Positions 10,496 to 64,000 are shown, numbered from the stretch's first letter. The stretch is 64,000 bases of DNA from Streptomyces sp. HD (GCF_028369295.1 NZ_JAQMYP010000012.1:124001-188000); one strand, 5' to 3'. Numbers and translations: made by a program. Notes: generated by a model from the sequence alone, not told the origin.

Positions 10496-11434
10496 CTATG
10501 CCAGGAGGCCGGACGACCTCCACAGTCGCCGTCCCACTCCCCGCAGTACGCCTATGTCATCCAGGAAGTCGGTCAATCGTTTCGCCCCCGTCTGCATGAC
10601 CTCCCGGCGATGCCCGCTCGCCTTCACCTGGGCCATGGCCTCCCGCTTGTCCAGGCCCACGTTCGTGTAGACCTCGGGGTTCACGAACGCCACCGAGAAC
10701 ACCCGGGCGAACTCGCCGGACGTCACCCGCGTGAACTCCTGCGACCACCTCGGCGCCGTCACCATCTGGCGGCGCAGCTCCTCGCGGGCGTAGCGGACGT
10801 GGCGGGCCTCCTCGACGACGTGTATCCGTGTCACGCCCCGGACCAGGGGCTGGACGCGCTCGTCCGGGAAGGTCAGGCGCTGCATCCAGTCGAGGACCTC
10901 CTCGCCGAGGAGGGTGGCCGTGAAGGAGCCGGGGGTCGTCGAGATTGTCTTGAACAGGCGCCCCAGGTTCTGGTGGACCCGGGCCACCGGGTACCAGGGC
11001 GTCCCACCGTGGGATATCAGGCGGGCGAACATCTTGGAGTGGCGGCACTCGTCCTCGATCTCGGTCAGCGCGTACCGCACATGCGCACTCGTCGCCGCCT
11101 TGTCGTAGATGTGGCGGACCAGCAGCTGCATGAGGATGATCTCGAACCAGATGCCGAGGGAGGCGAGGGCGGCGGCCTCGTGCTGGGAGAGGAGGATGCG
11201 CTGTTCCTCGCTCATCCGCTTCCACAGGGGCGTGTCGTAGAGCGAGACCAGCTCCGGCGGCCAGAACCACATGCCCTCCTCGAAGGGTGCCTCCCAGTCC
11301 AGCTCCTTGTCGGGGTCGAAGGAGTGCTTGGCGGAGGAGGCGAGGAGGCGTTCGGCCACTTGCTCCCGGTCCTTGAGCAGGCCGAGTGCGTCGCGCAGTC
11401 CGTCGAGCGCGTCGGCTTCCGTCAGGGTCGTCAT
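10496..11434 (-). CDS. AurF-like diiron oxygenase
   Basis: 312 aa. Resembles the p-aminobenzoate N-oxygenase AurF family, soluble enzymes that oxidise amines or other substrates with a carboxylate-bridged diiron centre. Seen: EIEDECRHSKMF (~127-138) and HVVEEARHVRYAREE (~200-214), two E-x2-H style ligand motifs, with further Glu residues in helices (HEAAALASLGIWFE, LLGEEVLDW). ATG 11434 starts 111 nt from the divergent region shared with a second diiron protein. Substrate unknown. Confidence 0.82.
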   Translation of the reverse strand: MTTLTEADALDGLRDALGLLKDREQVAERLLASSAKHSFDPDKELDWEAPFEEGMWFWPPELVSLYDTPLWKRMSEEQRILLSQHEAAALASLGIWFEIILMQLLVRHIYDKAATSAHVRYALTEIEDECRHSKMFARLISHGGTPWYPVARVHQNLGRLFKTISTTPGSFTATLLGEEVLDWMQRLTFPDERVQPLVRGVTRIHVVEEARHVRYAREELRRQMVTAPRWSQEFTRVTSGEFARVFSVAFVNPEVYTNVGLDKREAMAQVKASGHRREVMQTGAKRLTDFLDDIGVLRGVGRRLWRSSGLLA

Positions 11435-46225: not shown

Positions 46226-47362
46226 ATGTCCGCCGAGAGCACGCCGGAACCCGGCATACCGGGTGACACCGGCACCGCAGGTCCACGCAATCGGGCCAAG
46301 GGCCGCCGCCGCAAGCCCCGCGACAAACGCAAGGGCCTGATGATCATGGCCTGGACGGCCGCCGGTATCGTTGTCCTGGGCGGGACCGGAGCCGGGTACC
46401 TGTACTTCAAGCTCAACGGCAACATCAAGAGCGTGGACATCGACCAGGCCCTCGGCACCGACCGGCCGCAGAAGGTCGACAACGGCTCGGAGAACATCCT
46501 CGTCCTCGGCTCGGACACCCGCTCCGGCGGCAACAAGAAGCTCGGCGGAGGCACCGACGACGGCAGTGCCCGCTCGGACACGGCGATGATCGTGCACGTC
46601 TACGAGGGCCACAAGAAGGCCAGCGTGGTCTCCATTCCGCGCGACACCCTGATCGACCGCCCCGAGTGCACCGACACCAACGGCAGGACGCACCGGGCGG
46701 CGTCGGGCGTGATGTTCAACGAGTCGTACTCCACGGGCGGTGCCGCCTGCGCGGTGAAGACCGTCGAGTCGTTCAGCGGTGTCCGCATGGACCACTACCT
46801 GGAGGTCGACTTCGCCGGCTTCCAGAAGCTCATCGACGAGCTCGGCGGCGTCGAGGTCACCACCACCAAGAACATCAACGACCCCGACAGCCACCTCGAC
46901 CTCAAGGCCGGCACCCACCAGCTCACCGGCAAGCAGGCGCTCGGCCTGGTCCGCACCCGGCACGGCGTCGGCGACGGCTCCGACCTCGGCCGTATCCAGC
47001 TCCAGCAGGCCTTCATCAAGGCGCTGATCAACCAGGTCAAGGACATCAACCTGTTCGGCAACCCCAAGCGGCTGTACGACCTGGCCAACACCGCCACCAA
47101 GACGGTCACCACCGACTCCGACCTCGGCTCGGTCAACAGGCTCATGTCCTTCGCGGGCGGCCTCAAGGGCATCAGTTCCAAGAACATGAACATGGTCACG
47201 ATGCCGGTCCAGTACGACCCGGCGGACCCGAACCGCGTGATCGTGGCGAAGACCAAGGCCCAGCTGGTGTGGGACGCCCTGAAGGCGGACAGGGCGATCC
47301 CGAAGGCGGCGACCGAAGGCACCGCGACCGGTGATGCCAAGGGTGTCGTCAACGCCGGCTGA
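46226..47362 (+). CDS. LCP-family (LytR-CpsA-Psr) cell-wall glycopolymer ligase
   Basis: 378 aa. Basic cytoplasmic start, one membrane helix (~40-62), then the LCP domain: [52 protein letters not shown] and [19 protein letters not shown]. It attaches teichoic-acid-like polymers to peptidoglycan outside the membrane. GAGGAG lies before ATG 46226. In S. coelicolor an LCP gene also sits beside rho. Confidence 0.93.
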
Positions 47363-47501
47363 GGGCCCGCGGGGAATACCTGACGCCAACCCCCGGTTTT
47401 GGGGGATGGCCCCAGTCCTGGCAGACTGGTACGTCGGCCCCGGTTCACGCTCCCGCATCCCGCGGTGGCGACCCGGTGCCCTCCCGAAACTAGGAGACAC
47501 C

Positions 47502-47723
47502 TTGAAGCGCGACATCCACCCCGCGTACGTCGAGACGCAGGTCAGCTGCACCTGTGGCGCGTCGTTCACCACCCGTAGCACGATCGAGAGCGGCACCATC
47601 CGTGCCGAGGTCTGCTCCGAGTGCCACCCGTTCTACACGGGCAAGCAGAAGATCCTCGACACCGGTGGCCGTGTGGCCCGCTTCGAGGCCCGCTTCGGCA
47701 AGGCCGCCGGCTCCAAGAAGTAG
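47502..47723 (+). CDS. rpmE: Ribosomal protein bL31 (zinc-binding form)
   Basis: 73 aa, starts [20 protein letters not shown] from TTG 47502 with AGGAGA upstream. Cys residues in SCTCG and EVCSECHPF form the C+ zinc site, so this is the zinc-containing paralogue that is replaced in zinc shortage. Confidence 0.95.
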
Positions 47724-47828
47724 CGAGCCCCATTTCGCCGGTCCACGGTCGCGCCCTTTCACAGGCGTGCCGGGACCGGCGTTTTTGGTCGCCCGCCCTT
47801 CACAGACGTACCCACACAGGAGCCCAAG

Positions 47829-48905
<1,077 letters not shown>

Positions 48906-48936
48906 GGGACGTACGAGCAAGTACCGGAGGACATGC

Positions 48937-49818
48937 GTGCAGCCAACATTTGGGGGGCGACCCTCAAGCCCCCGCAGCGTGCTGCTCGCTGAGGTAGCCC
49001 AGGCCACCCAGCGGCTGGCCGACGCCGGCGTGCCCTCGCCGCGCAACGACGCGGAGGAGCTCGCCGCGTTCGTGCACGGCGTGAAGCGGGGCGAGCTGCA
49101 CTCCGTGCAGGACGCGGACTTCGACGCCCGCTACTGGGAGGTCATCGCCCGCCGCGAACAGCGCGAGCCGTTGCAGCACATCACCGGGCGGGCCTACTTC
49201 CGGTACCTCGAACTCCAGGTGGGGCCGGGCGTGTTCGTGCCCCGCCCCGAGACCGAGTCGGTGGTCGGCTGGGCCATAGACGCCGTGCGCGCGATGGACG
49301 TCGTCGAGCCCTGCATCGTCGACCTGTGCACCGGCTCCGGCGCCATCGCGCTCGCCCTCGCCCAGGAGGTCCCGCGCTCCCGCGTGCACGCCGTGGAGCT
49401 GTCCGAGGACGCCCTGCAGTGGACGCGCAAGAACGTGGAGGGGTCCAGGGTCGACCTGCGGCAGGGCAACGCCCTGGACGCCTTCCCCGACCTCGACGGC
49501 CAGGTCGACCTGGTCATCTCCAACCCGCCCTACATCCCGCTGACCGAATGGGAGTACGTGGCTCCCGAGGCGCGGGACTACGATCCCGAACTCGCCCTGT
49601 TCTCCGGTGAGGACGGGCTCGACCTCATCCGTGGCCTGGAGCGGACCGCACACCGTCTCCTGCGCCCCGGCGGGGTCGTCGTCATCGAGCACGCCGACAC
49701 CCAGGGCGGGCAGGTGCCGTGGATCTTCACCGAGGAGCGGGGCTGGGCCGACGCGGCCGACCATCCCGACCTCAACAACCGTCCCAGGTTCGCGACCGCC
49801 CGCAAGGCGCTGCCGTGA
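48937..49818 (+). CDS. prmC: Release factor glutamine methyltransferase
   Basis: 293 aa; methylates the Gln of the GGQ motif in release factors. Seen: REPLQHITGRAYFRYLEL, FVPRPETE, VDLCTGSGAIALALAQ (SAM motif I) and SNPPYIPL (NPPY, ~195). GTG 48937 has GGAGG 6 nt upstream. Next gene 61 nt on. Confidence 0.96.
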   Translation: MQPTFGGRPSSPRSVLLAEVAQATQRLADAGVPSPRNDAEELAAFVHGVKRGELHSVQDADFDARYWEVIARREQREPLQHITGRAYFRYLELQVGPGVFVPRPETESVVGWAIDAVRAMDVVEPCIVDLCTGSGAIALALAQEVPRSRVHAVELSEDALQWTRKNVEGSRVDLRQGNALDAFPDLDGQVDLVISNPPYIPLTEWEYVAPEARDYDPELALFSGEDGLDLIRGLERTAHRLLRPGGVVVIEHADTQGGQVPWIFTEERGWADAADHPDLNNRPRFATARKALP

Positions 49819-49879
49819 CCGCCCCGCAGACTTCGATCCCGCAGTACGTGTACTTCGTGTACGAGGAGGCCCGCTAGAC

Positions 49880-50527
49880 ATGGCACGGCGATACGACACA
49901 AACGACGCGACGGACCGTACGACGGGCCTGCGCGAAGCCGCGTCCGCCGTCCGCCGGGGCGAGCTCGTGGTCCTCCCGACCGACACGGTGTACGGCATCG
50001 GCGCCGACGCGTTCGCCAAGGAGGCCGTAGGCGATCTGCTGGAGGCCAAGGGACGGGGCCGCAACATGCCCACACCGGTCCTGATCGGCTCCCCGAACAC
50101 GCTCCACGGTCTCGTCACCGACTTCTCCGAGCTGGCCTGGGAGCTGGTCGACGCGTTCTGGCCGGGCGCGCTGACCCTGGTGGCCAAGCACCAGCCGTCG
50201 CTGCAGTGGGACCTGGGCGACACCCGGGGCACGGTTGCCGTGCGCATGCCACTGCACCCGGTCGCCATCGAGCTGCTCACGGAGGTCGGCCCGATGGCGG
50301 TGTCGTCGGCCAACCTCACGGGGCACCCTGCGCCGGAGGACTGCGACTCCGCGCAGGAGATGCTCGGCGACTCGGTCTCCGTCTACCTGGACGGCGGCCC
50401 GACCCCCGGCAACGTCCCGTCGTCGATCGTCGACGTCACCCGCGAGATCCCGCTCCTGCTGCGCGCCGGCGCCATCTCGGCGGAGGAGCTGCGGAAGGTC
50501 GTACCCGACCTTGAGGTGGCGAATTGA
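49880..50527 (+). CDS. L-threonylcarbamoyladenylate synthase (Sua5/YrdC family)
   Basis: 215 aa; makes threonylcarbamoyl-AMP for the t6A modification of ANN-decoding tRNAs. Seen: RRGELVVLPTDTVYGIGADA, LEAKGRGRNMPTPVLI (KxR), ALTLVAKHQ, VAVRMPLHP and VSSANLTGHPAP. TsaC/YrdC length without a Sua5 C-domain. Overlaps the next gene by TTGA. Confidence 0.95.
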   Translation: MARRYDTNDATDRTTGLREAASAVRRGELVVLPTDTVYGIGADAFAKEAVGDLLEAKGRGRNMPTPVLIGSPNTLHGLVTDFSELAWELVDAFWPGALTLVAKHQPSLQWDLGDTRGTVAVRMPLHPVAIELLTEVGPMAVSSANLTGHPAPEDCDSAQEMLGDSVSVYLDGGPTPGNVPSSIVDVTREIPLLLRAGAISAEELRKVVPDLEVAN

Positions 50528-51204
50528 CAGCCCCCAACGCGGGGCGTGGCATAGGCAACGGGGAAAGCGCGGCGGAGATCACCACGACATTCGTCGGACT
50601 CCCGCGCGACAGCTTCCGCATCCTCCACGTCAGCACCGGCAATGTGTGCCGCTCACCGATCACCGAGCGGCTGACCCGTCATTTCGTGACGCAGCGCCTC
50701 GGTGTGCTCGGCGGCGGGCTGATCGTGGAGAGCGCGGGCACCTGGGGCCACGAGGGCGCGCCCATGGAATCCAACGCGGAGACCGTCCTCGCCGACTTCG
50801 GCGCGGACGCCTCCGGCTTCGTCGGCCGCGAGCTCCTCGACGAGCACGTCATCCGTGCCGACCTGGTCCTCACGGCCACCCGCGACCATCGCGCCCAGGT
50901 CATCTCCATGGGCCATTCCGCGGGCCTGCGCACCTTCACCCTCAAGGAGTTCACCCGCCTGGTGAAGGCGATAGACCCCGCGACGCTGCCTCCCCTGGAG
51001 GACGGCGTGGTGTTCCGCGCACGCGCCCTGGTCCGCGCGGCCGCGGCTCTACGCGGGTGGCTCCTGGCTCCGACGGCGGAGGCGGACGAGGTGTACGACC
51101 CGTACGGGGCGCCCCTGACGTTCTTCCGGTCGATCGGGGACGAGATACACCAGGCGCTGGATCCGGTCGTCACAGCGCTCACCGGAGTACCCGCGAGGGC
51201 GTAA
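50524..51204 (+). CDS. Low-MW protein tyrosine phosphatase-like protein lacking the nucleophile
   Basis: 226 aa. The P-loop reads HVSTGNVCRSPITER: the position of the catalytic Cys in CxGNxCRS is Ser37, while Arg43 is kept. A late Asp-Pro (VYDPYG) stands where the general acid normally is. With ~30 extra N-terminal residues it looks like a fold-conserved pseudo-phosphatase or a binding protein. TTG 50524 overlaps the previous stop. It sits in the rpmE-glyA gene order. Confidence 0.85.
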   Translation: MTAPNAGRGIGNGESAAEITTTFVGLPRDSFRILHVSTGNVCRSPITERLTRHFVTQRLGVLGGGLIVESAGTWGHEGAPMESNAETVLADFGADASGFVGRELLDEHVIRADLVLTATRDHRAQVISMGHSAGLRTFTLKEFTRLVKAIDPATLPPLEDGVVFRARALVRAAAALRGWLLAPTAEADEVYDPYGAPLTFFRSIGDEIHQALDPVVTALTGVPARA

Positions 51205-51341
51205 CAACCGGGCGCCCCTGCCGCCCCGGGCCTACATTGGACGTACGTCACCACGGCTCGTGAGCTGAAGGGGTGCGCCGGTGCCCCGGGCACCCCGCAG
51301 GCGAGCGGGCCATCAGAAGCGTCGCACGCCCGGAGCCCACC

Positions 51342-52580
51342 ATGGCGGTCACCCGTACCCTCGCGGCCGATGTCCTGCGCGGCCAGGACCCGCAGCTCGC
51401 CGACATCCTGCTCGGTGAGCTGGACCGGCAGTCGACGACGCTCCAGCTCATCGCCGCCGAGAACTTCACGTCCCCCGCGGTGCTGGCGGCCCTCGGATCG
51501 CCGCTGGCCAACAAGTACGCGGAGGGCTACCCGGGCGCCCGGCACCACGGCGGGTGCGAGATGGTCGACGTCGCCGAACGGCTCGCCGTGGAACGCGCCA
51601 AGACGCTCTTCGGGGCCGAGCACGCCAATGTGCAGTCCCACTCCGGCTCCTCGGCCGTCCTCGCCGCGTACGCCGCCCTGCTGCGCCCCGGCGACACCGT
51701 CCTCGCCCTCGGACTGCCGTACGGCGGCCACCTCACGCACGGCTCGCCGGCCAACTTCTCCGGCCGCTGGTTCGACTTCGTCCCCTACGGCGTCGACGCG
51801 GAGACCGGGCTCATCGACCACGACCAGGTGCGCACCCTGGCCCGGGGGCACCGGCCCAAGGCGATCGTGTGCGGGTCCATCGCCTACCCGCGCCACATCG
51901 ACTACGCCTTCTTCCGCGAGCTCGCCGACGAGGTCGGGGCGTACCTCATCGCCGACGCCGCCCACCCGATGGGGCTCGTCGCCGGGGGAGCGGCGCCGAG
52001 CCCGGTGCCGTTCGCCGATGTGGTGTGCGCCACTACCCACAAGGTGCTCAGAGGCCCACGCGGCGGCATGATCCTGTGCGGCGCGGACCTCGCCGAGCGC
52101 GTCGATCGCGCCGTTTTCCCCTTCACCCAGGGCGGCGCCCAGATGCACGCCATCGCCGCCAAGGCCGTGGCGTTCGGTGAGGCGGCAACACCGGAGTTCG
52201 CAGCGTACGCCCATCAGGTGGTCGCCAACGCGAGAACCCTGGCGGCCGGGCTGGCGGCGGAGGGACTGGTCGTCACCACGGGCGGCACCGACACCCACCT
52301 CATCACCGCCGACCCGGCTCCGCTCGGCGTAGACGGCCGCACGGCGCGTGGGCGGCTCGCGGCGGCCGGGATCGTGCTGGACTGCTGCGCGCTGCCGCAC
52401 GGCGACGCCCGTGGCCTGCGCCTGGGCACGGCGGCCGTGACCACGCAGGGCATGGGGGAGGAGGAGATGGTGTGGCTGGCCGCGCTGGTCGGGGGCGTGC
52501 TCAGGGAGGAGACCGAAAGTCCGAAGGCTCGTGAAGAAGTGCGGGAGCTGGCCGGTAGATTTCCGCCGTATCCCGGCTGA
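51342..52580 (+). CDS. glyA: Serine hydroxymethyltransferase
   Basis: 412 aa PLP enzyme interconverting serine and glycine with tetrahydrofolate. Seen: LQLIAAENFTSPAVLAALGS, NKYAEGYPGARHHGGCE, DAAHPMGLVAGG and the PLP Lys in TTHKVLRGPRGG (Lys234). ATG 51342 has GGAG 6 nt upstream. A TACATT -10-like hexamer near 51232 would give a ~95-nt leader; I see no clear riboswitch in it. Confidence 0.95.
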   Translation: MAVTRTLAADVLRGQDPQLADILLGELDRQSTTLQLIAAENFTSPAVLAALGSPLANKYAEGYPGARHHGGCEMVDVAERLAVERAKTLFGAEHANVQSHSGSSAVLAAYAALLRPGDTVLALGLPYGGHLTHGSPANFSGRWFDFVPYGVDAETGLIDHDQVRTLARGHRPKAIVCGSIAYPRHIDYAFFRELADEVGAYLIADAAHPMGLVAGGAAPSPVPFADVVCATTHKVLRGPRGGMILCGADLAERVDRAVFPFTQGGAQMHAIAAKAVAFGEAATPEFAAYAHQVVANARTLAAGLAAEGLVVTTGGTDTHLITADPAPLGVDGRTARGRLAAAGIVLDCCALPHGDARGLRLGTAAVTTQGMGEEEMVWLAALVGGVLREETESPKAREEVRELAGRFPPYPG

Positions 52581-52720
52581 GGCGGGGTAGACGCACCCGC
52601 ATACACAGCCACGCATGCAACCATCGTCGCTACCCGGAAGTCCCCACACATATGCGTCGTGTGTGTGTACGTCGCTAGGGTGTGGGGCTGAGATGGCCAG
52701 CGAGACTTGTGGGGAAGCCC

Positions 52721-54085
52721 GTGCGTGAATACCTGCTGACGCTCTGCATCACGGCCGCGGTGACGTATCTGCTGACAGGGCCGGTACGTAAGTTCGCGAT
52801 CGTGGCCGGAGCGATGCCGGAGATCCGGGCACGTGACGTGCACCGGGAGCCCACTCCGCGGCTCGGCGGGATCGCGATGTTCTTCGGCCTGTGTGCGGGG
52901 TTGCTGGTCGCCGACCACCTCACGAACCTCAGTAGTGTCTTCGAGAACTCCAACGAACCGCGGGCGCTGCTCTCCGGAGCGGCGCTCATCTGGCTGATCG
53001 GCGTCCTGGACGACAAGTTCGAGATCGACGCCCTGATCAAGCTGGGCGGCCAGATGATCGCCGCCGGCGTCATGGTCATGCAGGGTCTGACGATCCTGTG
53101 GCTGCCGATCCCGGGCCTCGGCAACGTGGCGCTGACCCAGTGGCAGGGCACCCTGCTCACCGTCGCCCTGGTCGTCATCACCATCAACGCGGTCAACTTC
53201 GTCGACGGACTGGACGGCCTCGCGGCCGGCATGGTCTGCATCGCCTCGGCCGCGTTCTTCCTCTACGCCTACCGGGTCTGGGTGTCGTACGGCATCGAGG
53301 CCGCCGCTCCGGCCACGCTGTTCGCGGCGATCCTGATGGGCATGTGCCTGGGCTTCCTGCCGCACAACATGCACCCGGCGCGGATCTTCATGGGCGACTC
53401 CGGCTCGATGCTCATCGGCCTGGTCCTGGCGGCGGGCGCGATCTCCATCACCGGCCAGGTCGACCCGGACGCGCTGAAGCTGTTCGCGGGTTCGGAGAAG
53501 GCTGCGGTGCACCAGACGGTCCCGGTCTACATCCCGCTCCTCCTCCCCCTGACGATCATCGCGATCCCGGCCGCCGACCTGATCCTCGCGATCGTGCGCC
53601 GCACCTGGCGCGGCCAGTCGCCGTTCGCCGCCGACCGCGGCCACCTGCACCACCGCCTCCTGGAGATCGGCCACTCGCACAGCCGCGCGGTGCTGATCAT
53701 GTACTTCTGGTCGGCCCTGATCGCGTTCGGAGCGCTCGCGTACTCGGTCAACTCGGCGTCGATGTGGATCGTGCTGGGCGTGGTGTTCTTGAGCGCCATC
53801 GGGCTCCTCCTGCTCCTCATGCCCCGCTTCACGCCCCGCGCCCCGCGCTGGGCCGAGGCCTTCGTGCCGCCGCGCTACCGGCGTGGCCGGGCGGCCGGGA
53901 TCGGTGCCCTGCCGGCCCGGGAAGGTGTTCCGGTGGCCTCCGGCGGACCCGTGCCCCCGGCGGCCGACGGGACCGCCGGGGTGGTCGCGGCACGCGAGCC
54001 GGGCGTCGCCCGCAAGCTGAACGGCGCCACCGCCCTCTCCGACCACTCCACCCGGCTGCGGACGCACGAGCACGAGCGGGCGTAG
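52721..54085 (+). CDS. WecA/MraY-family undecaprenyl-phosphate glycosyl-1-phosphate transferase
   Basis: 454 aa, about eleven membrane segments. It links UDP-GlcNAc (or a similar sugar) to undecaprenyl phosphate for teichoic or other wall polymers. Motifs: RDVHREPTPRLGGIA, LDDKFEID (Asp-Asp), NAVNFVDGLDGLAAG, FMGDSGSMLIG and RGHLHHRLLEIGHSH. The tail (~390-454) is hydrophilic. GTG 52721 has GGGGA 5 nt upstream. In S. coelicolor the ATP synthase genes come next; here convergent cluster genes do. Confidence 0.93.
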   Translation: MREYLLTLCITAAVTYLLTGPVRKFAIVAGAMPEIRARDVHREPTPRLGGIAMFFGLCAGLLVADHLTNLSSVFENSNEPRALLSGAALIWLIGVLDDKFEIDALIKLGGQMIAAGVMVMQGLTILWLPIPGLGNVALTQWQGTLLTVALVVITINAVNFVDGLDGLAAGMVCIASAAFFLYAYRVWVSYGIEAAAPATLFAAILMGMCLGFLPHNMHPARIFMGDSGSMLIGLVLAAGAISITGQVDPDALKLFAGSEKAAVHQTVPVYIPLLLPLTIIAIPAADLILAIVRRTWRGQSPFAADRGHLHHRLLEIGHSHSRAVLIMYFWSALIAFGALAYSVNSASMWIVLGVVFLSAIGLLLLLMPRFTPRAPRWAEAFVPPRYRRGRAAGIGALPAREGVPVASGGPVPPAADGTAGVVAAREPGVARKLNGATALSDHSTRLRTHEHERA

Positions 54086-55248: not shown

Positions 55249-55916
55249 GCGGGGGGCCGTCGCTCGACCACGACCGACGTGATGACGATGCCGTGACCCA
55301 CGGCCCAGCGGCCGTCGAGGTCGCACATGGAGGGCTCTGCGGCACGCAGGGTGCTGGGGAGCACCCGGCCGTGGAAGGTGCCCCGCACCGGGTCGACGTC
55401 GATCAGGACGTGCTCGAAGCCCAGGGGCCGCGAGGTCGCCGGGAACCACGCCTTGTAGATGCTTTCCTTGGCGCTGAACAGCAGTTTGTCCCAGTTGGCG
55501 GTGGGATACCGCGCCGCGTGCTGCTTGACCTGCACCTGCTCGGCAGGCAGTGCCACGGCTTCCAGGACGCCCTCCGGGAGCGGTACGTCGGGCTCCGCGT
55601 CGATGCCCAGGGCCGTGATGCCGGAGGTACGGGCGACAGCGGCGGCGCGGTAGCCGGCGCAGTGGGTGATCGCTCCGCAGACCCCGGCGGGCCAGCGCGG
55701 CGCGCCCTGCGGTGTGGCGAGGAGCGGTCCTGCCGGGATGCCGCCGAGGGCGGCCACCGCCCGGCGTGCGCAGTGGCGGCCTGTGGCGAACTCCTGCCGG
55801 CGGGTCTCCACGGAGTCCCGGACGAGGGCGGCTTCCTCTGGGTGCAGGGAGCCGACGGGGACGTCGCCGAACATCTCGTGGACCGCTGCTGCGGAAGGGA
55901 GAATCCGTTCGATCAC
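55245..55916 (-). CDS. 4'-phosphopantetheinyl transferase (EntD/Sfp type)
   Basis: 223 aa; puts the phosphopantetheine arm on carrier proteins of polyketide or peptide synthases. Seen: CARRAVAALGGIPAGPLL and CGAITHCAGYRAAAV of the EntD-like group, GIDAEPDVPLPEG with the Mg-binding Asp (~104) and FSAKESIYKAWFP (~146-158). GTG 55916 overlaps the phosphoesterase stop (GTGA), and the stop overlaps the mutase-like start (ATGA). Confidence 0.94.
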   Translation of the reverse strand: MIERILPSAAAVHEMFGDVPVGSLHPEEAALVRDSVETRRQEFATGRHCARRAVAALGGIPAGPLLATPQGAPRWPAGVCGAITHCAGYRAAAVARTSGITALGIDAEPDVPLPEGVLEAVALPAEQVQVKQHAARYPTANWDKLLFSAKESIYKAWFPATSRPLGFEHVLIDVDPVRGTFHGRVLPSTLRAAEPSMCDLDGRWAVGHGIVITSVVVERRPPA

Positions 55917-56788
55917 CGGTCCGCACCGCCGACGCGTGCCGGTGCCTGAGCCAGCACATCGACGGGCCAGTGCGGCTTGCGCCGGGGCCACCGCTGCCAT
56001 TCCCGCGGATAGCCGAGGGACGCCTCGTGGTGGGGCACGCCCTGCCAGTGGATCACCCGCGGGATGTGCAGATGGCCGTAGACCACGGCGGCCGCCCGGT
56101 ATCGCACGGGCCAGTCCGCCGTCGCCGTCGTGCCGCACCACAGGGCGAACTCGGGGTGGCGCAGGGCGCGGGTGGGTTCCCGGACGAGCGGGAAATGGTT
56201 GAGAAGAACGGTGGGTGGGCCGTCCACGAGGGCGTCGAGCCGGACTCGGGTCTCGGCGATCCGGGCCCGGCACCAGGCCTCACGACTCGGCCAGGGATCC
56301 GGGTCGAGCAGGAACTCGTCCGTGCAGATCACCCCGGCTTCGTCGGCGAGGCGCAGCGCGTGGCTCTTGGACCAGGCCGCCGGTGGCAGGAAGCTGTAGT
56401 CGTAGAGGAGGAAGAGCGGGACGACGGTCACCGGGCCGCCCCGGCCGTGCCAGACGGGGTAGGGGTCCTCGGGCGTGACGACGCCCAGGTCACGGCAGCG
56501 CTCCACCAGATGCCGGTACTTGGCTTCACCGCGCAGGTCCTCGGGGTCACCCGGCGCGGTCCACAGTTCGTGGTTGCCGGGGGTCCACACGACCTTGGCG
56601 AACCGGTCGCGCAGCAGGGACAGCGCCCACGTGATGTCGGCCACGCTCTCGCCCACGTCCCCGGCGACCAGCAGCCAGTCCTCGTCGGAGTCCGGGCGGA
56701 GCCGCTCGACGATCTCCCTGTTCTGCTCGTGGCGGACATGGATGTCGCTGACGGCGAGAAGTCGGCCAGCATGTCGATTCCGGCTCAA
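55913..56788 (-). CDS. Calcineurin-type metallophosphoesterase
   Basis: 291 aa. Metal ligands in order: SDIHVRH (~14-20), GDVGES (~44), GNHELW (~72), NHFPLV and GHLHIP. It lies directly before a PPTase gene, a pairing seen elsewhere in Streptomyces (from memory, SCO6672-SCO6673); it may hydrolyse a CoA- or phosphopantetheine-related compound, but this is inference. TTG 56788 is preferred: GGAGG stands 6 nt before it. Confidence 0.9.
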   Translation of the reverse strand: MSRNRHAGRLLAVSDIHVRHEQNREIVERLRPDSDEDWLLVAGDVGESVADITWALSLLRDRFAKVVWTPGNHELWTAPGDPEDLRGEAKYRHLVERCRDLGVVTPEDPYPVWHGRGGPVTVVPLFLLYDYSFLPPAAWSKSHALRLADEAGVICTDEFLLDPDPWPSREAWCRARIAETRVRLDALVDGPPTVLLNHFPLVREPTRALRHPEFALWCGTTATADWPVRYRAAAVVYGHLHIPRVIHWQGVPHHEASLGYPREWQRWPRRKPHWPVDVLAQAPARVGGADR

Positions 56789-56840: not shown

Positions 56841-56876
56841 AGCCTGATCCACTGCCCTGGCTGGTGGAACCCCTAA
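56841..56876 (-). promoter_or_regulatory. Promoter of the phosphoesterase operon with TTAGGGGTT box
   Basis: On the minus strand: TTAGGGGTT (56876-56868) runs into TTCCAC (-35, 56869-56864), 17 nt, CAGGCT (-10, 56846-56841). The leader to TTG 56788 would be about 45 nt. The same box stands in front of two other genes of the cluster edge. Confidence 0.55.
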
Positions 56877-57068
56877 CCCGCACCCCGACCGCCGGTGGGA
56901 AGGGGGCAGTTGCCCACCGGTGGGCCTGACTGGCGAGCAGTGGTGGCCGGCGCGGGTGTCGCGACGTCCTTGTGCTGCGCCTGTCACCGGCGAAACAGCG
57001 CCGAGTCATCGGACGCCGCTGCCACTACCGAAGAAGGGCCAGTTGGGGCAACGTTTCTGACTGACTAC

Positions 57069-57113
57069 TAGGGGGGTGCGCGTGGGATTAGGGGTTGTGG
57101 GGTGACTAAGGGG
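57069..57113 (+). promoter_or_regulatory. Triple TAGGGG-type boxes before the thioesterase
   Basis: TAGGGGGGTGC (57069-57079), TTAGGGGTTG (57088-57097) and CTAAGGGG (57106-57113) follow each other at 18-20 nt, about two helical turns, 77-120 nt before the start. The first two are repeated word for word before LAL-2. TTGTGG at 57095 could be the -35 but no good -10 lies 17 nt on. The rest of the 401-nt gap up to 57189 shows no gene. Confidence 0.6.
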
Positions 57114-57189
57114 TCACGAAGCATGATGGGCGAGACGACAGGGCCCAGGAGGTTGCAGTCCGACGGCCGCCTGTAGCACGAAAGGTTCA

Positions 57190-57951
57190 ATGGTGAGTGC
57201 CAACCGCGTTGACGAGACCCTGTGGATTCGCCGGTTCCATCCGGCGGCCTCTGCGGCCACCAGGCTCGTCTGCCTCCCACACGCTGGTGGATCCGCCCCC
57301 TACTTCCTTCCGGTCTCCAAGGCGCTCGCCCCGGAGGTCGACGTTCTCGCTGTCCAGTACCCGGGACGGCAGGACCGCCGGCAGGAGCGGTGCATCGACA
57401 ACATTCCCGAACTGGCCGATGCCGTGACGGCCGAACTGCTGCCACTGGCGGACCGGCCGCTGGTGCTGTTCGGCCACAGCATGGGAGCCAGCCTCGCGTT
57501 CGAGGTGGGTATTCGGCTGGAGAAGGCGGGGACCGTGCCCCTGGCGCTGTTCGCCTCCGGTCGCCGGGCTCCTTCGCGCTACCGTGAGGAGAGCGTGCAT
57601 CTCCGCAGTGACGACGAGATCATCGCCGAGCTCAGAGCGCTGAGCGGGACGCGGTCCGAGGTGCTGGCCGACGAGGAGATCCTGCGCATGGCGCTGCCGG
57701 CCATTCGCGGCGACTACAAGGCGGCCGAGACGTACCGCCACACTGACGGGGTGCGGCTCGCGGCGCCGATTCATGTCCACTACGGGGTGGACGACCCGCG
57801 GGTCAGCCTCGACGAGGCGCAGGCCTGGGCGGATCACACGAGCGGCCACTTTGAGCTCCAGACCTACCCCGGCGGGCATTTCTACCTCAATGAGCAGGCG
57901 CCCCGTGTCATCGAGGCGATCGCCCGGGTGACGTCCACCGTCACGTCGTAG
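57190..57951 (+). CDS. Type II thioesterase of the cluster edge
   Basis: 253 aa editing thioesterase. Seen: RLVCLPHAGGSAPYFLP, VQYPGRQDRRQER, Ser in LFGHSMGASLAFE (~97), YGVDDPRVS (Asp) and YPGGHFYLNEQ (His). AAAGG stands 4 nt before ATG 57190. Similar to the thioesterase at 26307 but clearly diverged. Divergent from the phosphoesterase-PPTase operon across a shared control region. Confidence 0.93.
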   Translation: MVSANRVDETLWIRRFHPAASAATRLVCLPHAGGSAPYFLPVSKALAPEVDVLAVQYPGRQDRRQERCIDNIPELADAVTAELLPLADRPLVLFGHSMGASLAFEVGIRLEKAGTVPLALFASGRRAPSRYREESVHLRSDDEIIAELRALSGTRSEVLADEEILRMALPAIRGDYKAAETYRHTDGVRLAAPIHVHYGVDDPRVSLDEAQAWADHTSGHFELQTYPGGHFYLNEQAPRVIEAIARVTSTVTS

Positions 57952-57988
57952 AACCGAGGGCCTGCCCGGCCCTTTGGGAAATTCGGTA

Positions 57989-58011
57989 CAGGGCCCGGCC
58001 GCCGGGCCCTG
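57989..58011 (+). terminator. Thioesterase terminator-like hairpin
   Basis: CAGGGCCCGGC-C-GCCGGGCCCTG, a perfect inverted repeat 38 nt after the stop. No U-tract. Confidence 0.7.
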
Positions 58012-58386
58012 GCGAGCCCCGTTCAAAGTCGAGCGGTGGATACTGCGGCGACCATCCGTGGGCCGAGTTCCTTTTCACACCAAGAATTAATCCGCTCCTT
58101 ACGCGACCCTTATTTATTCCTCCTGTCCGGGAGTTTGCGGCAGACTGTCTGACTCGCCCTGACCTGCGCGGAGTCGACGGCGGGGTGATTTCTGTCCATG
58201 TCTGTCCCAATATTTTTTGAAGTTGACACCTCCACTGGACTGGTGTTTGAATTATGTGGGTTTTTGGTGCGTATGGCGCGGTTAAGGGTCAATCGGGGAA
58301 ACTGCGCGTGGGGTTCTGAGTTTTCTTCCCTCATGCGCGTGGCCATGTACTCTTGGCCGGACTGATAACGGGGTGTTTCGGCATTT
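58012..58386. other. AT-richer leader region of LAL-1
   Basis: Between the hairpin and the regulator. Contains stretches such as AAGAATTAATCC, CTTATTTATTCC and AATATTTTTTGAAG that are unusually AT-rich for the window, and the promoter at 58223. GGTTAAGGGTCAATCGGGG (58277-58295) is a weak relative of the TAGGGG box downstream of the -10. No gene seen. Confidence 0.5.
58223..58252 (+). promoter_or_regulatory. LAL-1 promoter with consensus -35
   Basis: TTGACA (58223-58228), 18 nt, TTGAAT (58247-58252). The leader would be about 130 nt. It lacks the TTAGGGGTT box found at the other three promoters. Confidence 0.5.
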
Positions 58387-61176
58387 ATGGTCCTGGTAGG
58401 GAGAGTTCAGAAAAAAGATCGACTCGAAGCGGTCTTTTCGTTCGTTCGGTCATCCGGAATGGCGAGAACCGTGCTGGTCGAGGCGGCCGCGGGCTGTGGA
58501 AAGACTGAGCTCCTGGAAGGGCTCGTGCGGCATGTCGAGTCACTCGGTCTGACGGTTCTGCATACCAGTGCGATCGCAGAGGAGAGAAATACCCCTCTCA
58601 GTGTGCTTCGCGGTCTCGTCAATAGTTCCTCCTTTCCCGACGAGCTGGTGCGGCGATTTCACACGATGGGTGATGCCGCGGTGCACGGGGCTTCTGCGGG
58701 AGCAGGGGGTGAGGTACGGCGCGACGCCGCCTGGTACGAGCTGATGCGGACGTTCTGTGCCGGGGTTCGCGCACTCGCACGGCGGGAGCCCCTCGTGGTG
58801 GCGGTCGACGACATCCAGCACGGCGACACCGACTCCCTGCGCCAGTTGCTCCATCTGGCCCGGCACTGCTGCAACGTGCCGTTACTGCTGGTGCTCACGC
58901 AACCGCTCGTCGGGAGCCCGGCGGACGGAGCCTTCGGCGCGCAGTTGCTGAGGCAGCCCCACCTGGAGCGCATCCGGCTGCCGGCGCTCGGCCCGGAGGA
59001 CGTCGCCGGCTTCCTTGCCGAACTGGGGTACGCGGGGGTCGGTACCGACATGGCGGAGCACTGTTTCGCGGTCAGTGGCGGCAACCCCTTACTGCTGCGG
59101 GCGCTGCTGCAGGACGCCGGCCTGGAGCCGGGCGACCCGACGGGCGGCCGGGGGCTCAGGGTCGGGCAGGCGTACGGCAGGGCCGTCCTCACCTGCCTGG
59201 ATCGCAGCGGTGAGAAGGTGTACGACGTTGCCGCCGGACTGGCCGTGCTCGGCGGAGCGTTCACCCATGAACGGCTCTCCCGGCTGCTGGACATCTCCGC
59301 CGCCGAACTCACCGAGAACCTCCAGGCCCTGCAAGGCACGGGCATTGTGGCCGGTACGTCCTTCCAGCACCCGGCGGCAGAGGAGGCGGTCCTGGACTCG
59401 CTGGAGCCCTCGCACCGGCTCCGTCTGCACCAGCGGGCCGCGGAGCTGTTGCACACCTTCGGGGCTTCGTCGGCGCTGGTGGCCGAACACCTCCAAGAGG
59501 CCGGGCAGTTGAAGGACCCCTGGACGGTCGGCGTCCTTCAACAGGCCGCCGAACAGGCTCTCTCGGAAGACCGCGCGTGCCGTGCCGTGGCCTATCTCGA
59601 ACTGGCGCACACCGCGTGCGAGGACCCGCTGCGGCGCGCCGAGATCAAGATCAGGCTCGGCTCGGTGACCCGGCGGATCAGCGTCGCCGACGCCGAGCGT
59701 CATGTCGGCGACGTGCTCCAGGCGCTCCGGGCGGGCTGGCTCGACCCGGCGGACGCGGGCGGCCTCGGCGAGCTGTTGCTGGCCCACGGACGACTGGAGC
59801 ACGCGCGCGTTCTGCTGGACCCGCAGGAGCCCGACCCCGACGATGGAACCCGGGCCCGCCCGCGGACCACGGAGTCGCGCGAGGGCTTTCTGCGCCGCAG
59901 GCTCTGGGGCGCCGGGTCACGGTCGTCCCGGCTCGACAGCCCGGGAACCGGCAGCCCGCCCGTCGGCCGAGCGGGCAGGGGCATCCTCGCGGGGTTCAGT
60001 GGCGAGCACTCCGGCCGGCGGTCCCAGCACATCGCGAGCGCAGAGGGATTCCTGGAGATCACGCAGCTGACCGACACCACGTTCGACCCCGTGGTCGACG
60101 CCATCTGGACACTGGTCGGCCTCGGAGCCGTGGAGCGTGCCCTGCACTGGTGCGACACCTTCCTGCGGGAGTCGGCGGCGCGGAACGCGCCCGGCTGGGA
60201 GGCGGTCATCGCCGCCGTGCGCTCCGAAGCGGCCCTGCACGGCGGTGACCTGGCCGGGGCCGAGCGTGATGCGCGCCGCTCTCTGGCGCTGCTGCCCGAG
60301 CGCCACCGGTCGGCCTTCGAGGCAGCGGTGGTCGCCCGGCTGGTGACGGTGCAGGTCGCCCGGGGAAACCACCGGGAGGCGGCCCGGCTGTTGAGCCGCC
60401 CGGCGGCGGACTACTTGCCGGACACCTTCCACTGGCTCTTCTACCTTCGGGCCCGCGGGCTGTACTACCTGGCCACCCGGCAGTACGACTCGGCGCTGTG
60501 GGACTTCCAGGAGATCGGCCGCGTCGCGGGGCGGTGGGGCACGGACTGGCCTTCCCTGCTGCCCTGGCGCACGGACAAGGCGGAGGTGCTGCTGCGGCTG
60601 GGGGAGCGGGAACAGGGGCAGCGGCTGGCCGCCGAGCAGCTGGCCCTGACCCAGAACGGCGCACCGCGCATCCGCGGTATCTCACTGCGTGTCCAGGGCC
60701 TCGCCTCGGAGCCCGGCGCCCGGCTCTCCCTGCTCAAGCGGGCGGTGGTGGAGCTGAACCGGGCCGACGACCCGCTGGAGCTCTCCCGGGCCGTGTTCGA
60801 CCTGTCCCACGCCCACCGGCAGTCCGGGCAGACCCGGCAGGCGGTGTCGGCCCTGCGCCAGGCCCGGCAACTGGCCAAGAGCTGCGGGGTGCCACCGCCC
60901 CGGGACCCGATCGGATCGCCCGACGCCGCCGGGGCAGCAGTGGAGCCGTCCGTCGCGAAGGAACCCGAGCGGCACGTCCGCTGGGAACACCTCAGCGAGT
61001 CCGAACGCCGGGTGGCGGCTCTGGCCGCCCGCGGGCACACGAACCGGGAGATCTCGGGACGGCTGCACATCACCATGAGCACGGTGGAGCAGCATCTGAC
61101 ACGTGTATACCGAAAACTTGAAATAAATGGGCGTGACGAATTGATGTCCGAGGCGTGGGCCGGTGTCAAAGTCTGA
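58387..61176 (+). CDS. LuxR-family (LAL) cluster-situated activator 1, two TTA codons
   Basis: 929 aa large ATP-binding LuxR regulator. Walker A AAAGCGKTEL (~33-42), Walker B PLVVAVDDIQ, a long TPR-like helical middle, and a C-terminal LuxR HTH (~868-925: LSESERRVAALAARGHTNRE then TMSTVEQHLTRVYRKL). TTA codons at 58882-58884 (codon 166) and 59089-59091 (codon 235), the second inside the conserved GGNPLLLRALL. These make it a bldA-dependent gene by expectation. Likely transcriptional activator of the neighbouring cluster. Confidence 0.93.
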   Translation: MVLVGRVQKKDRLEAVFSFVRSSGMARTVLVEAAAGCGKTELLEGLVRHVESLGLTVLHTSAIAEERNTPLSVLRGLVNSSSFPDELVRRFHTMGDAAVHGASAGAGGEVRRDAAWYELMRTFCAGVRALARREPLVVAVDDIQHGDTDSLRQLLHLARHCCNVPLLLVLTQPLVGSPADGAFGAQLLRQPHLERIRLPALGPEDVAGFLAELGYAGVGTDMAEHCFAVSGGNPLLLRALLQDAGLEPGDPTGGRGLRVGQAYGRAVLTCLDRSGEKVYDVAAGLAVLGGAFTHERLSRLLDISAAELTENLQALQGTGIVAGTSFQHPAAEEAVLDSLEPSHRLRLHQRAAELLHTFGASSALVAEHLQEAGQLKDPWTVGVLQQAAEQALSEDRACRAVAYLELAHTACEDPLRRAEIKIRLGSVTRRISVADAERHVGDVLQALRAGWLDPADAGGLGELLLAHGRLEHARVLLDPQEPDPDDGTRARPRTTESREGFLRRRLWGAGSRSSRLDSPGTGSPPVGRAGRGILAGFSGEHSGRRSQHIASAEGFLEITQLTDTTFDPVVDAIWTLVGLGAVERALHWCDTFLRESAARNAPGWEAVIAAVRSEAALHGGDLAGAERDARRSLALLPERHRSAFEAAVVARLVTVQVARGNHREAARLLSRPAADYLPDTFHWLFYLRARGLYYLATRQYDSALWDFQEIGRVAGRWGTDWPSLLPWRTDKAEVLLRLGEREQGQRLAAEQLALTQNGAPRIRGISLRVQGLASEPGARLSLLKRAVVELNRADDPLELSRAVFDLSHAHRQSGQTRQAVSALRQARQLAKSCGVPPPRDPIGSPDAAGAAVEPSVAKEPERHVRWEHLSESERRVAALAARGHTNREISGRLHITMSTVEQHLTRVYRKLEINGRDELMSEAWAGVKV

Positions 61177-61187
61177 GGAATCGTGGA

Positions 61188-61240
61188 TAGGGGGGTGCAG
61201 AAATATAGGGGTTGGTGTGCGGGGTGCCGTCGCATAAATT
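61188..61240 (+). promoter_or_regulatory. LAL-2 promoter with TAGGGG boxes
   Basis: TAGGGGGGTGC (61188-61198) and TAGGGGTTG (61206-61214), then TTGGTG (-35, 61212-61217), 17 nt, TAAATT (-10, 61235-61240). The second box overlaps the -35, the layout of an activator contacting RNA polymerase. The leader to GTG 61275 is about 28 nt. Confidence 0.65.
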
Positions 61241-61274: not shown

Positions 61275-64000
61275 GTGGAACGGGTGGGCTCCGGCGGTCA
61301 TTCGGTGCTTGTCGAGCGCGACGCGGAAATGGCGGCGCTCGTGGATGTGCTGGCGCAGGTGGGGCAGGGCAAGGGGGGTGTCGTCATCCTCAACGCGGGG
61401 CCCGGGGTCGGCAGAACCGCACTGCTCGACGAATTCCTGTGCAAGGCCGCCGAATCCGGTGCGCGGGTGTGCGCCGCCACCGGCTCGTCCGCCGAGCAGG
61501 ACGTCGAGTACGGCATCGTCGGCCAGCTCTTCCCCCCGAACGGCGGCCTGAGCGCCGGACTGCGGCTCGCTCGCGCGATCGGGCGGCGCGACACCGGCCC
61601 CGATCCCGACGTGGACGCGCTCTTCGACATGCTGTGCCGGGAGTTCCGGCAGCGGCCGGTGGTGATCGGCGTCGATGACGCCCAGTTCGCCGACGCGCCT
61701 TCCCTGCGGTTCCTGCTCCACCTCGTACGACGGCTGCGGACCACCCCGGTGATGATCGTGCTCACCGAACCCACCGGACCGGACTCACTGCCCCCGTCCT
61801 TCCAGGCCGAGGTCCTGCGCCAGCCCCAGTGCCGGCGGCTCGGTCTCCTGCCGCTGTCCCGGGCCGGTGTCGCCCATACGATCGCAATGCACGTGGACGA
61901 GGCCGAGGCCGAGGCCGAGACGACGCGGCTGGCCGCGGACTTCCATGCCGTCAGTGGCGGCAACCCCCTCCTCGTACAGGCCCTGTTGACGGACCACCGG
62001 GACGCGCACCGGCGGGACCAGGAGGCCGCGATCGGCCTGCCCGCCACGGGTGCGGCCTTCGCCAAGGCGTCCCTCGCCTGGGCCTACCGCGACGACCCCG
62101 TCCTCTTCGACGTCGCCTGCGGATTCGCCGTACTGGGGGAATCGGCCACCCCCGCCCTGGTCGCCTGTCTGGCCGACCGCGGCGCGGACGCCGTCGCCCG
62201 GGTCATGACCGCCCTCGACACGGCCGGACTGCTGGACGGCGGAACCCTGCGCAGTGCCGTCGTCGGCCGGGCCCTGCTGGAACACGTCGACGTCGAGACC
62301 CGAGCCGAACTACGGCGGCGCGCGGCCGGGTTGCTCCGCGTCGACGGTGCGCCCGCGACCGCCGTCGCCCGCCAGTTGCTGGCCGCGCCCGTGGCCGAAC
62401 CATGGGCCGGGCGTACCCTGCTCGCCGCGGCGGACAAGGCCATGCGGGACGGGCAGACGGAGTTCAGCCTCGACTGCCTCCGGCTGGCCGGGCGCAACGC
62501 CACCACCGAGCACGAACACGCCGCTGTCGTCATGGCCCGGGTACGGATCGGCTGGGAGATCGATCCCCGCCTGGTGAGCCCGTGGCTCGACGAACTCGTC
62601 GGAGCGCTCGAACAGGGCAGCCTCCGCAGTGCCGACGCCGCCTGGATCGTCAAGCATCTCGCCTGGCAGGACCGGTTCCCCCAGGCCGCGGAGTGTCTGC
62701 GGGCGCTCACCGAGCGGGCCGGCCCGGACGCACCCGGGGCGACGGCCGAACTCCATGCCGTCCGGCACTGGTTGCGCCACTCCTGCCCCCCGCTGGACGC
62801 GGACGCCCCGGACGCCCCCGACCTCGGGGCACCGCGCACCGCGCAGCCCCGTCAGGTGAGCCCCGCCTCGTACGCCGCCGAAGTGCTCGGCCAGGTCCTC
62901 ACCGAAGGGCCCGGCGAGTACACCATCGGCATGGCGGAGGAGATCCTGCGCGGCTGCCGATACGGCGAGGCCGCGGTCGAGGATCTGGAGGCGGCGCTGC
63001 TGGCGCTGCTCTACGCGGACCGTCCCGACCGGGCGGTGTTCTGGTGCGACCTGCTGCTGAACCAGGCCGGCGACCGGTCCACGGGTACATCGGTGGCGAT
63101 TCTCTCCGGCGTCCGGGCCGAGATCGCGCTGCGGCACGGCGCCCTGCACGCCGCGGAACAGCACGCGAGCAGCGCCCTGTCGGCCATCTCACGGTCCGGC
63201 TGGGGAGTGGCCATCGGCTCCCCGCTGGCCGCGCTGGTGCAGGCCGCCACGGCGTCCGGCATGAGCGGGGCGGCCGGGGCCTGGCTGAACCAGGACGTGC
63301 CCGAAGGCATGTTCCAGACCCGGCACGGGCTGCTCTACACCCACGCCCGGGGCCACTACCACCTTGCCGTCGACCGCCCGGCCGCCGCCCTGGACGACTT
63401 CCTGACCTGCGGCGACCTGGCGAAGCAGTGGGGCATGGACGTCCCCACGTTCCTCCCGTGGCGCACCTCGGCGGCACAGGCGCACCTCGCCCTCGGCAAC
63501 CCCGGACAGGCGCGCACCCTGGTGCGGGAGCAGCTGGCCCGGCCCGGCGGGTCCACCCCGCGGGCCCGGGGTGTCTCCCTGCGGCTGCTCGCGGCCACCA
63601 GCGAACTCGGGCAACGGCCCGCCCTGTTGCGTGAGTCGGTCAGCCTGTTGGAGAACGCCTCGGACCCTGTGGAGCTCCTGCGCTCCCTGGCCGACCGCTG
63701 TCAGGTTCTGCACGAGGTCGGAGCACCCGCGAAGGCACGGATGACCGCACGGCACGCCAGGACCGTCGCGGACTCCTGCGGCGGGCACACGTTGTTCCGC
63801 AAGCTCTTCAAGGACGAGGAGCCCGAGAACACAGCCGAGGCCGACGGCCTCACGGGTGAGGACCAGGGCTCGGCGAGCCTGACGGCCGCGGAGCGGCGGG
63901 TCATCGCCCTGGCCGCGCTCGGGCACTCCAACCGCGAGATCGGCCGCAAGCTGTTCATCACCAAGAGCACCGTCGAGCAGCACCTCACCCGTGCGTACCG
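61275..64000 (+). CDS. LuxR-family (LAL) cluster-situated activator 2, 3' end cut by window
   Basis: 908 codons in view, open to the window end. GTG 61275 has GGGGAG 5 nt upstream. Walker A-like NAGPGVGRTAL (Arg in place of the usual Lys), Walker B-like VVIGVDDAQFAD, the same SGGNPLLVQALL and helical repeats as LAL-1, and the start of the LuxR HTH (LTAAERRVIALAALGHSNRE then STVEQHLTRAYR). Only the last ~20 residues are missing. I saw no TTA codon in the visible part. Paralogue of LAL-1. Confidence 0.92.
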   Translation, partial: MERVGSGGHSVLVERDAEMAALVDVLAQVGQGKGGVVILNAGPGVGRTALLDEFLCKAAESGARVCAATGSSAEQDVEYGIVGQLFPPNGGLSAGLRLARAIGRRDTGPDPDVDALFDMLCREFRQRPVVIGVDDAQFADAPSLRFLLHLVRRLRTTPVMIVLTEPTGPDSLPPSFQAEVLRQPQCRRLGLLPLSRAGVAHTIAMHVDEAEAEAETTRLAADFHAVSGGNPLLVQALLTDHRDAHRRDQEAAIGLPATGAAFAKASLAWAYRDDPVLFDVACGFAVLGESATPALVACLADRGADAVARVMTALDTAGLLDGGTLRSAVVGRALLEHVDVETRAELRRRAAGLLRVDGAPATAVARQLLAAPVAEPWAGRTLLAAADKAMRDGQTEFSLDCLRLAGRNATTEHEHAAVVMARVRIGWEIDPRLVSPWLDELVGALEQGSLRSADAAWIVKHLAWQDRFPQAAECLRALTERAGPDAPGATAELHAVRHWLRHSCPPLDADAPDAPDLGAPRTAQPRQVSPASYAAEVLGQVLTEGPGEYTIGMAEEILRGCRYGEAAVEDLEAALLALLYADRPDRAVFWCDLLLNQAGDRSTGTSVAILSGVRAEIALRHGALHAAEQHASSALSAISRSGWGVAIGSPLAALVQAATASGMSGAAGAWLNQDVPEGMFQTRHGLLYTHARGHYHLAVDRPAAALDDFLTCGDLAKQWGMDVPTFLPWRTSAAQAHLALGNPGQARTLVREQLARPGGSTPRARGVSLRLLAATSELGQRPALLRESVSLLENASDPVELLRSLADRCQVLHEVGAPAKARMTARHARTVADSCGGHTLFRKLFKDEEPENTAEADGLTGEDQGSASLTAAERRVIALAALGHSNREIGRKLFITKSTVEQHLTRAY

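Follow-up and report, generated by a model that had tools for sequence, protein, structure and literature searches.

A direct-repeat box beside the -35 region as a probable operator of LAL activators in Streptomyces polyketide clusters

At the left edge of a type I polyketide synthase (PKS) cluster of Streptomyces sp. HD, a short G-rich box recurs at the promoters of separate genes, which raises the question of which protein reads it. The window, that is, the whole stretch of DNA analysed (64,000 nucleotides, NZ_JAQMYP010000012.1:124001-188000), contains the regulator gene LAL-1 and most of a second one, LAL-2; the PKS modules begin in the adjoining sequence (L009) and the PKS runs past the contig end. 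Three promoters with boxes, P1, P2 and P3, lie in the window (Table 1); their -35 and -10 elements are predictions, assigned by reading the sequence. The copies of the box described in the initial annotation, two of TTAGGGGTT and one of ATAGGGGTT, were found in place upon re-reading, as were both copies of the 11-mer TAGGGGGGTGC, which starts 20 nt (P2) and 18 nt (P3) upstream of the proximal TAGGGG. The box had been said to run into a -35 with a 17-nt spacer at the first and third sites. This holds for P1 and P3, but P2, which had been left out, fits too with a spacer of 18 nt, and at all three promoters TAGGGG stands immediately 5' of the predicted -35, which is followed by a spacer of 17-18 nt to the -10. 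Besides the fit of P2, the present analysis adds the third box of P2, the GGGGTGC upstream of P1, which is a candidate distal operator half, and the boxes of the PKS promoter just outside the window (L009:2487-2533). The latter has a similar layout, with AAGGGGTCG, TAGTGGTTG and TAGGGG following one another at 11- and 13-nt steps and TTGAGG-18-GATATT downstream of the boxes. Direct repeats of the short asymmetric box are present at P2, P3 and the PKS promoter.

Table 1. Promoter elements and genes at the cluster edge (window positions; -35 and -10 elements and promoter targets are predicted)
Feature	Position	Strand	Sequence or basis
MCM-like (methylmalonyl-CoA-mutase-like) gene, second behind P1	54103..55959	-	Pfam MM_CoA_mutase 6.1e-65
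Metallophosphoesterase gene, first P1 target	55913..56788	-	Pfam Metallophos 8.3e-17
P1	56875-56841	-	TAGGGG-TTCCAC-17-CAGGCT
P1 box	56876-56868	-	TTAGGGGTT
P1 -35	56869-56864	-	TTCCAC
P1 -10	56846-56841	-	CAGGCT
P1 distal element	56882..56888	-	GGGGTGC, 13 nt upstream of P1 box
P2 distal box	57069..57079	+	TAGGGGGGTGC
P2	57089..57124	+	TAGGGG-TTGTGG-18-AAGCAT
P2 copy of TTAGGGGTT	57088-57096	+	TTAGGGGTT
P2 proximal box		+	TAGGGGTTG
P2 -35	57095-57100	+	TTGTGG
P2 third box	57108..57113	+	AAGGGG, between -35 and -10
P2 -10	57119-57124	+	AAGCAT
Type II thioesterase gene, P2 target	57190..57951	+	Pfam Thioesterase 1.9e-56
LAL-1 promoter	58223..58252	+	TTGACA-18-TTGAAT, without box
LAL-1, 929 aa, proposed binder	58387..61176	+	Pfam AAA_16 ATPase and C-terminal LuxR (GerE) HTH
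P3 distal box	61188..61198	+	TAGGGGGGTGC
P3	61206..61240	+	TAGGGG-TTGGTG-17-TAAATT
P3 copy of ATAGGGGTT	61205-61213	+	ATAGGGGTT
P3 proximal box		+	TAGGGGTTG
P3 -35	61212-61217	+	TTGGTG
P3 -10	61235-61240	+	TAAATT
LAL-2, 935 aa, P3 target, second candidate binder	61275..64000, ends in L009	+	translation; GTG start 61275

Protein searches, one of them covering 100 relatives, yielded orthologues of LAL-1 in Streptomyces sp. AC550_RSS872 (L011, 85% identity), S. hilarionis (L012, 69%), S. humidus (L013, 65%) and a more distant genome (G039, locus L083, 51%). The composite arrangement of box, spacer and -10 is kept at identical distances by P1 and P2 in L011, L012 and L013 and by P3 in L011 and L012. 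Conservation extends to the outer elements. The GGGGTG of the P1 upstream element is retained in L011-L013, and the distal box of P2 reads TAGGGGGGT in all three at an unchanged period of 20 nt. The third box of P2 is TAAGGGGTC in L011, TTAGGGGTC in L012 and degenerate in L013. The distal box of P3 is TAGGGGGGT in L011 and L012 and TAGGGGG in L015, and the -10 of P3 keeps its distance in L011, L012 and G039. In G039 paired boxes precede both the metallophosphoesterase gene and LAL-2, and in each case the -10 lies 29 nt from the start of the box. The boxed PKS promoter is retained in L011 and L012; likewise, the box-free LAL-1 promoter keeps its TTGACA-18 in L011, L012 and L013, and TTGACA is also found upstream of LAL-1 in L083. 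In L012 the MCM-like gene lies directly behind P1, and the LAL-2 orthologue carries AAA_16 and GerE (Pfam).

The flanks of the cluster offer some further observations. Between LAL-2 and the PKS lies an ORF judged by eye to be alpha/beta-hydrolase-like (L009:686-1849, window continuation 64686-65849), a position taken by a cytochrome P450 gene in L011 and L083. On the other side, the cluster adjoins a run of core genes (46226-54085) for a LytR-type protein, a prfA-like release factor, Sua5, an LMW phosphatase, glyA and glycosyltransferase 4; the glycosyltransferase gene also stands at the cluster border in L011, and the run is possibly an insertion hot spot. In L013 the cluster is apparently cut short past LAL-1 (after position 10790), and the genes that come next lack a box.

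Taken singly, the box is a poor guide. With one mismatch allowed, TTAGGGGTT occurs 7 times in the window against 2.2 expected, a modest excess that was reached in 1 of 100 shuffles, and genome-wide it is not enriched (131 loose matches compared with 203 for the reversed control). The high background that the initial annotation had named as an argument against its reading is thus seen with the box taken singly; the composite site does not show it. In 393 Streptomyces genomes the pattern of two boxes plus -10, TAGGGG-N5..16-TAGGGGTT-N21/22-HANNNT, was matched at 82 sites, whereas the reversed pattern, used as the control, gave 4. When both gaps were left free and the -10 was made stricter, 86 sites stood against 21 controls, and in 75 of the 86 the gap between TAGGGGTT and the -10 was 21-22 nt. 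The periods between boxes peak at 10-11 and 21-24 nt, close to one and two turns of the helix. Similar sites, those of related species not being independent, were merged into 37 groups, and the 21-22 spacing persists in 27 of these (compared with a uniform gap, binomial p about 1e-24). A further sample of 118 genomes, partly overlapping with the first and searched with a stricter -10, contained 17 sites against 0; its small set of 15 non-Streptomyces genomes contained no site.

The composite sites are found mostly inside polyketide clusters. KS domains are encoded at 31 of 40 representative site loci but at only 1 of 20 random stretches, and a full-length LAL lies within about 10 kb at 11 of the 40, whereas none of the 20 controls gave a comparably strong match. 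For 26 of the 28 sites on complete chromosomes, a LAL gene lies no more than 100 kb away; random placement gave a mean of 2.3 and a maximum of 8 in 2000 draws. In the reverse test, for which the rule for a site was relaxed, 6 of 20 LAL neighbourhoods picked regardless of boxes hold sites and none of 20 controls does (p = 0.01); the other 14 have no box partner within 10 kb. Polyketide clusters often contain LALs anyway, which partly confounds the linkage; several box loci (L181-L185) have no LAL within 10 kb, and some LALs with an identical recognition helix have no exact-match site nearby. The genes behind the boxes encode PKS, type II thioesterases, 3-hydroxyacyl-CoA dehydrogenases, zinc-type (crotonyl-CoA-reductase-like) dehydrogenases, an acyl-CoA ligase, sugar enzymes and two SARP regulators. 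The recognition helix STVEQHLTRVYRKL, common to LAL-1 and the box-linked LALs, is nearly invariant, with S-T-V-E-Q-H-L-T invariant, which would explain a common box.

Two sets of loci deserve mention in their own right. Elsewhere in the genome of strain HD, at G000:C130:10693 (L050), a box pair with a 13-nt period and a TAGCCT -10 lies upstream of a gene, with no LAL within 10 kb, and a near-identical promoter is present in a relative (G432:C6:46294). A recurrent box promoter, GCGCCTAGGGGTTGGGG...CCTAGCGT, is found at L181-L185 and L197, with no LAL within 10 kb; at L181 it precedes P450 genes near genes for a VinK-type acyltransferase and methylaspartate mutase, which suggests that loci of this type are macrolactam clusters.

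Because the same arrangement recurs in Streptomyces polyketide clusters near LALs, the boxes are very probably the landing site of LAL activators and a readable code for the genes that these switch on. We put at roughly 80% the probability that TAGGGGTT(G) is a MalT-like direct-repeat operator of LAL activators, bound here by LAL-1 in the first place. MalT of the E. coli and Klebsiella maltose regulon is likewise an ATP-dependent activator with a LuxR HTH, and its box is short, G-rich, asymmetric and overlaps the -35 (PMC7567727). The proximal box described here abuts or overlaps the -35 in the same way, and genes for candidate cognate activators of the ATPase-LuxR type, LAL-1 and LAL-2, are close by. 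In sequence, TAGGGGTT(G) does not match the E. coli consensus, GGGGA(T/G)GAGG as quoted in PMC7567727, and the MalT of Actinoplanes has a palindrome, TCATCC-5-GGATGA (PMC7567727). The PAS-LuxR regulator PimM binds a 16-bp palindrome, CTVGGGAWWTCCCBAG (PMC9774167), which shares with the present sites a TAGGG-like half-site, the position at the -35 and the occurrence in polyketide clusters. However, a palindromic site of the PimM type was rejected, as direct reading of P1-P3 revealed no inverted partner; the repeats are direct and the regulators are LALs, LAL-1 consisting of AAA_16 and GerE and having no PAS domain (Pfam), with the rest of the cluster lying beyond the contig end. FkbN, the LAL of the FK506 cluster, also activates a PKS cluster, but its predicted site consists of two PimM-like inverted repeats of 7 nt (PMC6022917). 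SCO6993, likewise an ATP-binding regulator of the LuxR family that acts on antibiotic genes in Streptomyces, is a repressor whose footprints are palindromes without a common consensus (PMC9628970), and the operator of RevU was left undefined (PMC7311520). The initial annotation knew of no described LAL operator of this form, and the open papers searched contain none with direct repeats. Nor did the open literature yield a regulatory match for the literal box as TAGGGGTT, CTAGGGG, AACCCCTA or TAGGGG combined with LuxR.

That a common activator serves the separate genes, as had been proposed, is strongly supported by the conserved sites, their placement at the -35, the helical phasing and the genus-wide linkage to LALs. 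The proposal that it is LAL-1 and/or LAL-2 stands as far as the class is concerned, LALs being the best candidates, and can now be narrowed, with the choice leaning to LAL-1. LAL-2, alone or in mixed oligomers with LAL-1, could bind directly, with LAL-1 acting only through LAL-2. Its recognition helix, ITKSTVEQHLTRAYRKL, is nearly the same as that of LAL-1, and the boxes in its own promoter are what is expected of an autoregulated activator. This arrangement is nevertheless unlikely, since the 97-kb cluster contig of S. humidus lacks LAL-2, and with it P3, yet P1 and P2 are still present there at unchanged spacing, which speaks for LAL-1 being sufficient as a binder. The preference for LAL-1 also rests on its own promoter being box-free while that of LAL-2 is boxed; the conserved absence of a box suggests that LAL-1 serves as the input, with LAL-2 as a target that carries boxes. 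We infer from these patterns that LAL proteins bind the repeats and activate transcription there. LAL-1, produced from its box-free promoter, would bind the repeats cooperatively, with the oligomers on one face of the DNA and the proximal LAL placed such that it touches RNA polymerase and supports a weak -35 contact. It would thereby turn on the thioesterase gene, the mutase-like operon, LAL-2 and the PKS genes, after which LAL-2 may reinforce the same sites.

A SARP-type activator on the direct repeats would be a very improbable alternative to a LAL. SARPs bind heptameric direct repeats with a period of about 11 bp, and the SARP-LAL PimR, which has no LuxR HTH, binds the heptamer CGGCAAG through its SARP domain (PMC5930380). 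The period of 10-11 bp is alike, but the binding domain differs, as does the heptamer from the TAGGGG-based repeats, and no SARP gene was found in the window plus the following 6.7 kb (L009) of a cluster that continues past the contig end. SARPs occur at only 2 of 40 matched loci (L102 and L110), where the box promoters lie directly upstream of the SARP regulator genes, so that SARPs appear there as box targets and were rejected as the binder. The two loci suggest LAL-to-SARP cascades. Equally slight is the probability that an alternative sigma factor uses TAGGGGTT as its -35 element. The fixed distance of 21-22 nt to a -10 of the TAGCGT/TAGCCT type would suit such an element, but it equals the spacing of an ordinary TTGnnn-17/18-(-10) promoter, the -10 varies within the cluster (CAGGCT, AAGCAT, TAAATT), and extra copies one or two turns upstream are unexpected for a -35. 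Chance repetition in G-rich intergenic DNA, which the lack of a genomic excess of the single box might favour, is refuted by the nearly empty reversed controls and by the fact that other species keep the box, the spacing and the -10.

LAL activators are one main class of activators of macrolide-type clusters, and the open papers searched offer no consensus operator for them, the sites of FkbN being predicted inverted repeats, those of SCO6993 lacking a consensus and that of RevU having been left open. Industrial patents reportedly claim LAL binding sites that contain GGGGGT, are G-rich and lie near polyketide genes. If these claims hold, the box is not wholly new, but the position rule and the genus-wide regulon would still be useful. 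With a strict rule for box position, target genes could be listed, cluster borders marked and the activator chosen that should be overexpressed to awaken a silent cluster. It may even be, although we rate this at slightly less than an even chance, that a single operator code serves the LALs of Streptomyces polyketide clusters, with direct repeats of TAGGGGTT helically phased against the -35 and recognised by a helix that hardly varies, such that regulons would be predictable from sequence and a LAL could activate further clusters, be it in its own strain or in a different one.
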